50,128 nt of DNA from positions 255,114 to 305,241 of the forward strand of contig NZ_KB235958.1 of the NCBI RefSeq assembly GCF_000332355.1, written 5' to 3'. The notes beneath the pieces were generated by a model. That model made no database searches. It was not told where the DNA came from and was given only the letters and a program-made list of their open reading frames with translations. The first letter of the stretch is position 1; each line of letters begins with the position of its first letter. The stretch is from Baaleninema simplex PCC 7105 (GTDB lineage Bacteria > Cyanobacteriota > Cyanobacteriia > Cyanobacteriales > Geitlerinemataceae). The position numbers and the translations under genes are program-made. Below, in pieces: positions 17,079 through 20,594 of this stretch.

Positions 17079-17639
17079 TCACGCTTGCGTCGCCGCCAGC
17101 TTATCGAGTAAATCCTGTTGGATGACTTCTGAAGGGCGATCGCCGTCGATGCGAAGGAGTTTGTTGCGCGGTTTATAGTAGCCGGTAATGGGAATCGTGC
17201 GCTGGTGGAACAAATCGATCCGCCGTCGGATGATTTCCGGGGCGTCGTCGTCGCGGGAGCGATCGAGCGATCGTTGCATCAACACCGGAACCGGGGCGTC
17301 TAACCAAATCGCCCAGTTTAATTCCTGTCCGAGATCCCCCAGGAGAAAATCCAGTTCTTCGGCTTGAAACGCTGTTCTTGGGTAGCCGTCGAGAAGCCAG
17401 CCATTTTCCGTATCCGGTTGCGTGAGGCGATGGCGAATTAGTTCGATGGTAATCGGATCGGGGACTAAATCGCCTTTTTCCACATAGGGCGCCGCTTGAC
17501 GACCGAGTTCCGTGTCCGATTCGATCGCCGCGCGAAAAATTTCCCCCGTCGCAATCCAGGGAATCCCTAAGTTTTCGCATAACATCCGACCTTGCGTCCC
17601 TTTTCCGGCACCAGGGCCGCCCAAAATGACCAATCTCAC
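17079..17639 (-). CDS. adk: Adenylate kinase (first of two in the window)
   Basis: 186 residues. Walker A GGPGAGKGTQ at 7-16, ATGEIFR for AMP binding, GWLLDGYPRT near residue 80 and the RRRID helix after the lid are all present. The lid is short, without zinc cysteines. Start is a GTG at 17639 preceded by AGGAG with a seven-base spacer. It should interconvert ATP, AMP and ADP. A second, more canonical adk sits in the ribosomal operon at 40664-41218. Differences such as DRSRDDDAPE in the lid suggest a distinct paralogue, perhaps with a changed nucleotide preference, which is inference. It precedes argS on the same strand. Confidence 0.92.
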   Translation of the reverse strand: MRLVILGGPGAGKGTQGRMLCENLGIPWIATGEIFRAAIESDTELGRQAAPYVEKGDLVPDPITIELIRHRLTQPDTENGWLLDGYPRTAFQAEELDFLLGDLGQELNWAIWLDAPVPVLMQRSLDRSRDDDAPEIIRRRIDLFHQRTIPITGYYKPRNKLLRIDGDRPSEVIQQDLLDKLAATQA

Positions 17640-17840: not shown

Positions 17841-19571
17841 GTGATTAAAAACGATACCTGGATTGCTCAAATGGCAGACAGGGGGATGATTTCCCCCTTT
17901 GAACCGCAACAAGTTCGCCACGCCGACGACTTCCCTGTGATTTCCTATGGGTTGAGTAGTTTTGGCTACGATATTCGTCTATCCCCAGCGGAATTTCGGA
18001 TTTTTCGCCACATCCCTGGAACCGTCGTCGATCCCAAAAACTTCAACCCGGAAAACCTCGAACCGACGAAACTTTACACGGACGAAAACGGCTCTTATTT
18101 CGTTCTTCCCGCCCATTCTTATGGGTTAGGCGTCGCCCTCGAAAAACTGGATATTCCCAACAACGTAACCGTGGTTTGTTTGGGAAAAAGCACGTATGCA
18201 CGTTGTTTTCGAGGCGATACGCGCGTTGCTTTGGTAGATGGAACGGCGCCGACGTTAGAAGAAATGGCGCGACGTTCCGAAGATGGCGAGCAATTTTGGG
18301 GCTACAGTATCGGTCTTCACGGACGAGTTATCGTCACACTTCTAGAAGCTCCGAGATATATCGGTCGGGATTCGTTAATGAAGGTGACGTTGGATAACGG
18401 TCAGTCCATTTTCTGCACGCCGGATCATCAATTTTTGACCCGAGACGGACGGATGGTCGAAGCGCATACTTTGCGCCCTCAAGATTCGCTGATGCCTTTG
18501 TATCGACAATTGCATCGCGGTTATGAAATGGTTTATCAACCGCTGAACGGGCATTTGTATCCGACACATCGGTTAAGCGATGAATGGAACGTTCGCAATG
18601 ACATCTATGCCGACATTAGCGATTCCCATCGCCATCATATCGACTTTAATCGATTAAATAACAACCCTTGGAATATCATCCGAATGGATGCGTCCGAGCA
18701 TATCCAACTTCACAATCGAGAATCCTACGGTGCAGAGTTCGACCCCGTCGAACACGGTGAATCGATTAAAGCTGCGATCGCACAATTAAAACAAGACCCG
18801 CAATGGAACGCGATTTTTTCACAGCAGCAGCAAGATAAAGCTCAGGCATTTTGGCACGATCCTAAATACGAGCAGCAGCGTCGATCGTTACTCGAACGTC
18901 GCCAGCACTGCTCGGAACAAACCCGCCAAGCCCATCGGCAAGCCATGATTCGCTATTATCAGGATCGACAAGCCCGTGCTTTAACCGCAGAGTTAAGCAA
19001 AAAGGCTTGGGCGCAAGACGATGGAACCCGACGGAAGCAGCAATCCGACTGGATGAAAGAATTCGTCGATCGATCGAAAACCCGTCACGATATTACAGGA
19101 GAAGCGGTTCGAGAGGCATTAGATCGCACGGGTTCGATTCGTGGCGCAGCTCGGTTGCTGAATTGCGATCGCTCGGTATTTCGGCGCTTTCCTGAAGTCA
19201 TCCAGGCATTTCGAGGAGAATCTCATCAACCTGCAACACGCAATCACAAAGTTGTTTCGGTTGAAGACGTTCCCGGTACGCACGATGTTTATTGTTTGAC
19301 CGTTCCGGAAGCAGGTAATTTTGCCTTAGATTCGGGGGTTTTCGTTCACAATTGCGGAATTATAGCAAATATTACGCCCGCCGAAGCCGCGTGGAAAGGT
19401 CATTTAACCTTAGAATTTTCCAACTCCTCTAGCGCAGACTGTCGAATTTACGCCAACGAAGGCGTGGTTCAACTGCTCTTTTTTGAAGGAGAAGCCTGCG
19501 ATACGAGCTACGAAGATAGAAAAGGAAAATACCAAGACCAAATCGAAAAAGTGACCTTGGCAAAAGTTTAG
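17841..19571 (+). CDS. dcd: dCTP deaminase precursor containing an intein
   Basis: The 576-codon frame is two pieces of a 193-residue dCTP deaminase around a 383-residue intein. Residues 1-121 (MIKNDTWIAQMADRG, SYGLSSFGYDIRLS, CLGKSTYAR) and 505-576 (CGIIANITPAEAAWKGHLTLEFSN, ANEGVVQLLFFEGE) join into a complete enzyme, whose family converts dCTP to dUTP, the precursor of dUMP for dTMP synthesis. The conserved Ser and Arg of GKSTYAR (117 and 121) and the catalytic Glu after splicing (about residue 142, in LTLEF) are retained. The junction falls directly after that arginine, so the unspliced product should be inactive. Start is GTG at 17841. thyX follows on the same strand. Confidence 0.95.
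   Translation: MIKNDTWIAQMADRGMISPFEPQQVRHADDFPVISYGLSSFGYDIRLSPAEFRIFRHIPGTVVDPKNFNPENLEPTKLYTDENGSYFVLPAHSYGLGVALEKLDIPNNVTVVCLGKSTYARCFRGDTRVALVDGTAPTLEEMARRSEDGEQFWGYSIGLHGRVIVTLLEAPRYIGRDSLMKVTLDNGQSIFCTPDHQFLTRDGRMVEAHTLRPQDSLMPLYRQLHRGYEMVYQPLNGHLYPTHRLSDEWNVRNDIYADISDSHRHHIDFNRLNNNPWNIIRMDASEHIQLHNRESYGAEFDPVEHGESIKAAIAQLKQDPQWNAIFSQQQQDKAQAFWHDPKYEQQRRSLLERRQHCSEQTRQAHRQAMIRYYQDRQARALTAELSKKAWAQDDGTRRKQQSDWMKEFVDRSKTRHDITGEAVREALDRTGSIRGAARLLNCDRSVFRRFPEVIQAFRGESHQPATRNHKVVSVEDVPGTHDVYCLTVPEAGNFALDSGVFVHNCGIIANITPAEAAWKGHLTLEFSNSSSADCRIYANEGVVQLLFFEGEACDTSYEDRKGKYQDQIEKVTLAKV
18204..19352 (+). mobile_element. Intein with HNH homing-endonuclease domain, in dcd
   Basis: 383 residues, from C122 (CFRGDTRVALVDG, block A) to H503-N504, followed by +1 Cys505. 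Block B is QSIFCTPDHQFLTRDG with TxxH (T193, H196). Blocks F/G read DVYCLTVPEAGNFALDSG and FVHN; the usual block F histidine before NF is a glycine. Residues needed for splicing (Cys1, TxxH, terminal HN, Cys+1) are present. The insert carries an HNH nuclease motif, HRHHIDFNRLNNNPWNI with later EHIQLH (about 263-291), then a charged helical stretch and an HTH-like segment SIRGAARLLNCDRSVFRRFP. Two HIP1 octamers inside (18774-18781, 19165-19172) suggest long residence in the host lineage. Confidence 0.93.
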
Positions 19572-19817: not shown

Positions 19818-20594
19818 ATGAAATTAGCCACAGCAAAAGATCTACTCGAAAACTGTCCTAAATTGCGCGTAGAAATCGACCCAGACGGTACGTCGCCCTC
19901 TCCCAACCGCGCCATTTGGAAAGGACAACATCAATGCGTTTACGAAGGATTCGCATTTGACGACAAAGCCCCCGACGAACGCCAAGCCGGAAAATCCGTC
20001 GTCAACACCCTATTAAAAGCCAACAAAGGGCATTATTCCCCCTTACGATGGGCGCACGTCGTCCTGCATATGAACGGTTTCGACCACAACACGATTATGC
20101 AGTTCGTTCGCCACCAAGATAGCGCCCATCTCGTGCAATCGATGCGCTACACTGGAAAGCGAATCGCCGCCTGGTGCAAGCAACAAAAGGACAGGGAATC
20201 GATCGATGGAATCGAAGAGATTCACTATCAACGTCCGGCGGGATTTACCTATGTCGATCGCTACGGACAAAAAGTAGAATACACCGAAGAGCTTCGCCAG
20301 CAAGATTTAAAACGAGCGGCGCAGTCCTATTTTGAATATGCTGAACAAGTCGATCTCGGATATCCTTTCGAGATGGCGAGAGGCTGTTTGCCCACGGGGT
20401 TTCGGCAAAATTACACCCTAGCGGCGGATTTACAAGCTTTATTACATATTCTCGATCAGCGCACGAAAAAAGACGCGCAAATTGAGGCTCAAGTGTTAGC
20501 CGATTTGATTTTAAATCAGCTCGATCGCTGGGTTCCTGAAATCGCCCACTGGTATCGCGACGCTCGTTATGGAAAAGCGATTCTCGCTCCTTAA
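19818..20594 (+). CDS. thyX: Flavin-dependent thymidylate synthase
   Basis: 258 residues. ThyX uses FAD, NADPH and methylene-tetrahydrofolate to methylate dUMP to dTMP. The signature region is FVRHQDSAHLVQSMRYTGKR: R98-H99-Q100 then x7 and S108, i.e. RHQ-x7-S in place of the textbook RHR-x7-S. The flanking HYSPLRWAHVVLH, SMRY and GFRQNYTLAADLQALLHILDQR stretches are typical. It stands 246 bp after dcd on the same strand, separated by hairpin repeats. With no thyA seen here, the pair dcd-thyX would cover much of the dTMP route. Confidence 0.94.
   Translation: MKLATAKDLLENCPKLRVEIDPDGTSPSPNRAIWKGQHQCVYEGFAFDDKAPDERQAGKSVVNTLLKANKGHYSPLRWAHVVLHMNGFDHNTIMQFVRHQDSAHLVQSMRYTGKRIAAWCKQQKDRESIDGIEEIHYQRPAGFTYVDRYGQKVEYTEELRQQDLKRAAQSYFEYAEQVDLGYPFEMARGCLPTGFRQNYTLAADLQALLHILDQRTKKDAQIEAQVLADLILNQLDRWVPEIAHWYRDARYGKAILAP

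Follow-up and report, generated by a model that had tools for sequence, protein, structure and literature searches.

The dCTP deaminase gene (dcd) of the cyanobacterium Baaleninema simplex PCC 7105, located in the 50,128-nucleotide stretch of contig NZ_KB235958.1 analysed here (hereafter, the window), very probably harbours a mobile class-1 intein that splices in cis and includes an HNH homing endonuclease. The element occupies a single fixed insertion point in dcd, referred to here as site a, immediately behind the active-site arginine. A Dcd HNH intein at this same site is already known from cyanophage CL131, and the new element is a further, chromosomal member of that kind.

The intein and its insertion point in dcd

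The dcd reading frame and its surroundings comprise the following features (window coordinates; residue numbers within the intein count from its first Cys):

17841-19571, + strand: dcd open reading frame, GTG start, 576 aa.
17841..18203, + strand: N-extein of dCTP deaminase, residues 1-121, ending in GKSTYAR (Pfam DCD 2-122; TIGR02274 5-122; 4DHK alignment).
18204..19352, + strand: intein, 383 aa, precursor residues 122-504, C122-N504 (PF14890; TIGR01445/TIGR01443; model).
18204..18503, + strand: N-terminal half of the Hint domain, intein residues 1-100, with Cys1 (TIGR01445; model).
18417-18428, + strand: block B, TPDH, intein residues 72-75 (sequence).
18624..18728, + strand: HNH nuclease core, intein residues 141-175, strand-strand-helix, with the motif HRHHIDFNRLNNNPWNI at 142-158 (PHROGs; model).
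18744..19082, + strand: helical linker region, intein residues 181-293 (model), wholly or mostly absent from the shortened cyanobacterial alleles in the alignment.
19098..19211, + strand: probable helix-turn-helix DNA-binding segment, intein residues 299-336, ending in GSIRGAARLLNCDRSVFRRFPEVIQAF (predicted helices).
19242..19352, + strand: C-terminal half of the Hint domain, intein residues 347-383, blocks F and G, ending in FVHN (TIGR01443; model).
19353..19571, + strand: C-extein of Dcd, 72 residues plus stop, starting with CGIIANITP (+1 Cys) and containing E525 (second 4DHK segment, 505-575).
19818..20594, + strand: ThyX-type thymidylate synthase downstream of dcd and outside the element (Pfam Thy1, 92.4 bits).

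In Pfam, the dcd frame matched DCD at 70.5 bits and Intein_splicing (PF14890) at 65.8 bits, against a cut-off of 35.8 for the latter, and the NCBIfam model dCTP_deam (TIGR02274) matched it in two stretches. The models of the N-terminal and C-terminal intein regions scored 36.8 bits (TIGR01445; cut-off 24.5) and 23.7 bits (TIGR01443; cut-off 15.6), respectively. The frame contains the intein blocks A (CFRGDTRV), B (TPDH at 72), F (DVYCLTVPEAGNFA) and G (GVFVHN). The 383-residue intein with blocks A, B, F and G that the initial annotation had placed between C122 and N504 is therefore borne out by three profiles above their cut-offs. The class-1 splicing residues are complete, consisting of Cys1, TPDH at 72-75, H382-N383 and the +1 Cys. 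The possibility of a split or bicistronic gene was rejected, as the frame is open throughout, and promoter-like sites between 17600 and 19900 were no more frequent than in shuffles (1 vs a mean of 2.1).

The structural reading rests on an AlphaFold2 model of the intein alone, built from 30 aligned inteins (mean pLDDT 85.7), the model of the whole precursor (pLDDT 59.1) having been set aside. The best PDB matches of the intein model were themselves inteins (Foldseek E 5.9e-7), and its VIA-align comparison with the Mtu RecA intein gave a Z of 20.8 over 138 residues at 1.7 Å. The predicted structure is that of a Hint fold assembled from residues 1-100 and 347-383.

The solved Dcd structure 4DHK aligns with residues 2-122 and 505-575 of the precursor, both segments meeting at chain residue 120. 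Because the two Dcd halves join at a single position, that of the +1 Cys, the insert lies exactly between R121 and the following residue, which agrees with the earlier placement directly after the GKSTYAR arginine. The same alignment upholds the expectation that the joined exteins constitute a normal Dcd of 193 aa (21,549 Da, from the sequence). Residues S117, R121 and E525, invariant across 24 aligned Dcd sequences, are presumably the active-site residues of E. coli Dcd, E525 being the catalytic Glu by homology. As the insert separates R121 from E525, the unspliced precursor should, from Dcd enzymology, be inactive.

Taken together, the profiles, the splicing residues, the fold, the joined-extein product and the existence of empty alleles identify the dcd insert as a class-1 cis-splicing intein. 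In the chemistry that we infer for the window copy, Cys1, the Thr and His of block B, Asn383 and the +1 Cys would carry out acyl shift, transesterification and Asn cyclisation after translation, and splicing would release an intein of 44.6 kDa (44,553 Da, from the sequence) and yield a Dcd of 21.5 kDa.

The predicted HNH endonuclease and related inteins

Four PHROGs HNH families matched the window intein (E 1.8e-5 to 0.0016), and the secondary structure predicted for the core consists of two strands (141-145 and 158-162) and a helix (163-175). The Pfam model HNH_3 reached 12.2 bits on the window intein, below its cut-off of 24.8. At E<=5, four of eight aligned inteins matched this model, the strongest at 0.0024, and the CL131 homologue scored 38.7 bits with it. 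Ten positions (H142, H144, H145, D147, N152, N153, P155, N157, H166 and H170) were invariant in an alignment of 30 inteins that includes the window and ten GyrB inteins. The HNH motif noticed initially thus finds backing in the PHROGs matches and the CL131 homologue, and the assignment of a putative HNH endonuclease is good, though not by Pfam alone. No LAGLIDADG match to the window intein was obtained up to E 5. The predicted helices of residues 299-336 resemble a helix-turn-helix, a tentative name, as HTH_28 matched one of eight aligned inteins, at E 0.1 only.

For the HNH segment, dN/dS ratios of 0.027, 0.043 and 0.097 were obtained from three pairings of loci L006, L008, L018 and L019, a fourth pair being saturated, and L020/L007 gave 0.042. 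These values cover relatives only, as dS was saturated in both window pairs, and dS was 1.4-1.5 in two of the four quoted pairs. The low ratios and the deletions described below fit an endonuclease that would be maintained in full-length copies and lost repeatedly elsewhere. No endonuclease assay for any member of the intein family was found in the available portions of the open-licence literature searched.

The closest known system is gp069 of cyanophage vB_AphaS-CL131 (MG209611.1), which shares with the window the host gene and the insertion site (GKSTYAR|C...N|CGIIAN), as well as the combination of Hint, an HNH_3-type domain and a SIRGAAR..DRS.FRRFPE segment, with 42.7% identity over the full length. 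The CL131 intein differs in its length (352 aa), in ending in KN where the window copy ends in HN, and in belonging to a phage rather than a chromosomal gene, and its branch in the intein tree is very long. According to a 2018 report, the CL131 Dcd intein is excised in E. coli (PMC6293099). C-terminally tagged gp069 expressed in E. coli BL21(DE3), with growth at 37 °C and overnight expression at 20 °C, was purified as a protein of ~25 kDa, in agreement with the 23.8 kDa of the joined exteins (PMC6293099). The initial annotation, which was not aware of a well-studied Dcd intein, is corrected in this respect. The same paper mentions earlier Dcd inserts from only two bacteria, belonging to Proteobacteria and Chloroflexi, with Novikova 2016 and MacGregor 2013 cited nearby (PMC6293099), and no Dcd intein is reported in the accessible parts of PMC7412058, PMC4853749, PMC5371798, PMC7019647 and PMC3608112.

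Cyanobacterial GyrB HNH inteins are related to the window intein over its whole length, with HNH columns in common and ~34-40% identity over residues 1-383 in most of the matches listed, but reside in another host gene and at another site (EGDSAGG|C); the intein of locus L075, for instance, has 435 aa. The RtcB-type intein model NF052663, from a different host, matches the window at 153.3 bits, below its whole-protein cut-off of 1050 bits. A Hint protein of Bacillus phage SP-15, also from a different host, shows 26.1% identity over residues 111-505 and was the top viral fold match (TMq 0.52). The inteins of Mtu RecA (splicing domain), Ssp DnaB and Npu DnaE share the Hint fold with the window (Z ~19-21) but are only ~20% identical, and their 139-160 residues leave no room for an HNH domain.

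Distribution, probable movement and decay of the site-a intein

Among the 14 genomes of the window family, 13 gave a dcd match, and the intein is present in two of these (the window genome and G512). The suggested survey for intein-less alleles at the same site accordingly returned 11 such alleles in the 13 dcd-bearing family genomes. Two overlapping samples extended the search: an order sample of 388 genomes, queried with the intein alone, contained at least 14 site-a inteins in dcd, of which 10 were full-length and 4 shortened, and a phylum sample of 386 genomes, queried with the whole precursor, gave at least five full-length matches. Many other intein matches of the order sample, most of them 34-40% identical, lie in frames of ~1,050-1,670 aa; Pfam identified the host ORF of L075, the single frame examined with it, as gyrB, and further intein ORFs of this sample show GyrB-like sequence in the same ORF.

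A scan of genome contigs returned 11 loci. Of the 111 genomes from the phylum of L012 (a Thermaceae MAG, hence Deinococcota), nine carry the intein, in every case in dcd (one of the nine is cut by a contig end). For the phylum of L011 (a Chloroflexus MAG, hence Chloroflexota), the figure is 8 of 251 genomes, and one MAG labelled Bipolaricaulota carries a site-a intein on a 4.3-kb contig. In 19 matching plasmid records, no place with 80% query coverage was found; among the eight plasmid matches listed, seven extend over a third of the query, which is what an intein-less Dcd would give, and the other is gyrB. Viral contigs scanned with six peptide patterns contained no matching stretch, and PADLOC gave no match.

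Inserts also occur at two other points of the Dcd loop:

L047 (genome G155), 677-2467, + strand: dcd insert GK|C...HN|STYARC, five residues upstream of site a (Pfam).
L048 (genome G127), 1278-2972, - strand: dcd insert GK|C...HN|STYARC, five residues upstream of site a (Pfam).
L049 (genome G121), 1054-2694, - strand: dcd insert TPAEA|C...N|SWRG, ~12 residues downstream of site a (junction read by eye).

L047 and L048 matched Intein_splicing (75.5 and 76.5 bits) and LAGLIDADG_3 (70.7 and 68.5 bits). L049 matched LAGLIDADG_3 at 26.6 bits (cut-off 22.5) and no intein model at E<=1, and its insert is a putative intein solely by our reading of the junction. No report of inserts of these kinds was found in the open-licence literature searched.

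The 33 site-a alleles that we compared come from cyanobacteria, relatives in two further phyla, the Bipolaricaulota-labelled MAG and the phage. The intein and extein trees are discordant. The extein tree is built on 200 columns and is poorly resolved, and the extein tests reported here use the 18 cyanobacterial intein-bearing rows alone. The extein data reject the intein pair G433 plus Nodosilinea (p-AU 0.03); their rejection of the 12-row intein group containing the window is marginal (p-AU 0.045), and they do not reject the intein trio G368, Spirulina and G411 (p-AU 0.080). Support for the 12-row group was 86/88 in the larger intein tree and 40/92 in the rebuilt one. In the opposite direction, the intein data reject the extein group formed by the window, G433, Coleofasciculaceae and G368 (p-AU 1.6e-11), the support of which is 91/92 only; this exact four-row extein group replaced an earlier five-row intein test. 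A larger extein tree combined the 33 intein-bearing alleles with 16 empty ones picked from those fetched. A clade test of the window plus five rows against the others (p-AU 0.002) was dropped because it split the near-identical L008/L014 and counted empty alleles, and its companion tests on 18 intein-bearing and 16 empty rows (p-AU 0.0116, 0.00235 and 0.0736) were dropped because they also counted empties.

The discordance of the trees, together with the patchy distribution, favours horizontal movement of the site-a intein, the short extein limiting the strength with which this can be claimed. Base composition was uninformative as a sign of recent arrival, the intein GC of ~0.47-0.53 being like that of the surroundings. 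In the empty family alleles the +1 residue is Ala (six), Cys (four) or Thr (one); co-conversion of the +1 codon was not decisive as an indicator, because Cys is common in empty alleles fetched elsewhere. The identity of the flanking DNA to the window followed no clear pattern across alleles.

The length of the intein also varies: 22 of the 33 site-a alleles have inteins of 352-386 aa, and the remaining 11 are shortened to 155-310 aa. Three Deinococcota alleles found later, outside this set (L132-L134), are likewise shortened (157, 198 and 301 aa). Cys1, the block-B TxxH and the terminal Asn are kept in all 33, and the penultimate His in 21 (absent from 12). Our own block-F pattern fits 31 of the 33. 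Our own HNH pattern fits 24; L097 and L098 deviate from it by one letter, L014 and L070 retain its first part only, and five alleles show none of it. The seven shortened cyanobacterial alleles represent seven different deletion spans, two of which share the left end, and all are in frame. In the Nostoc pair L008 (sp. TH1S01 MAG) and L014 (sp. CHAB 5844), the exteins differ at one of 197 compared residues; the L008 intein has 383 aa with HNH, and that of L014 is shortened to 235 aa. The pair points to a recent in-frame deletion of the endonuclease.

Patchiness, tree discordance and repeated endonuclease loss are as expected of a homing element. In the cycle proposed, the HNH core and the helical DNA-binding segments would cut empty dcd alleles, into which the intein would then be copied; later, in-frame deletion of the endonuclease would give rise to mini-inteins, or the entire element would be lost.

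Genome context and the role of the element

The window genome (6.15 Mb in 8 contigs) contains a single dcd, which lies on a contig of 3.98 Mb. An adenylate-kinase family gene of 186 aa sits immediately upstream of it on the opposite strand (window 17079-17639, -). A search with PF14890 revealed a second intein of this genome, in a 788-aa ORF (L003, 685-3051, +; G000:C4) that reads as a DnaB replicative helicase from its sequence. Neither of the two dUTPase families searched, PF00692 and PF08761, gave a match in the window genome, the PF08761 search being a weak one in which 1 of 14 controls matched, below the cut-off. In the 388-genome order sample, PF00692 matched one of the 14 genomes with a site-a intein (G352) vs 156 of the 374 others, a contrast confounded by the fact that many of those 374 may lack dcd.

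That the insert is an artefact of frame fusion, assembly error or contamination is practically inconceivable, being refuted by the recurrence of the allele: the same junctions appear in 33 alleles from separate records, a homologue exists in a sequenced phage, and the single dcd lies on a contig of 3.98 Mb. A more serious alternative, possible and yet distinctly less likely than an intact element, is that splicing has been kept while the HNH endonuclease of the window copy is already inactive, at an early stage of decay. The weak HNH_3 score of the window, the saturation of dS in the window pairs and the frequency of decay (11 of 33 alleles shortened) are consistent with such a state; against it, the window intein is full length and shares the ten HNH-region columns invariant in 30 inteins.

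The initial annotation had further suggested that the intein could serve to switch dUTP/dTMP supply. Under this proposal, conditional splicing, governed by redox, metal or temperature, would gate Dcd and hence dUTP/dTMP supply, and the intein would be retained as a regulator. The separation of R121 from E525, which from Dcd enzymology should leave the precursor inactive, is compatible with it, as is the thiol nature of both Cys1 and the +1 Cys; in a genome matching neither PF00692 nor PF08761, Dcd output may matter more. What the proposal draws on is the insertion position only, and an element homing into the most conserved DNA would just as well be expected in the active site. Moreover, the patchy occurrence (2 of 13 dcd-bearing family genomes), the discordant intein and extein trees and the repeated loss of the endonuclease argue against retention as a regulator, and the CL131 Dcd intein was excised in E. 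coli under ordinary expression, as reported in PMC6293099. We consequently regard a regulatory switch as very improbable, and the broader notion of a post-translational valve on pyrimidine-nucleotide supply, in a cyanobacterium whose dcd lies beside thyX and whose genome matched neither dUTPase family searched, as equally hard to credit.

The favoured reading thus remains a homing element at a fixed site of dcd. Considered alone, the window gene carries an ordinary, seemingly intact HNH intein. The family to which it belongs, with empty, full-length and shortened site-a alleles in at least three phyla and a phage, provides a naturally occurring range of states in which the homing-and-decay cycle can be tested, and the shortened Dcd alleles are a source of mini-inteins for protein engineering. 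With three insert sites and two kinds of endonuclease, the dcd loop is a compact example of why inteins occupy active sites.
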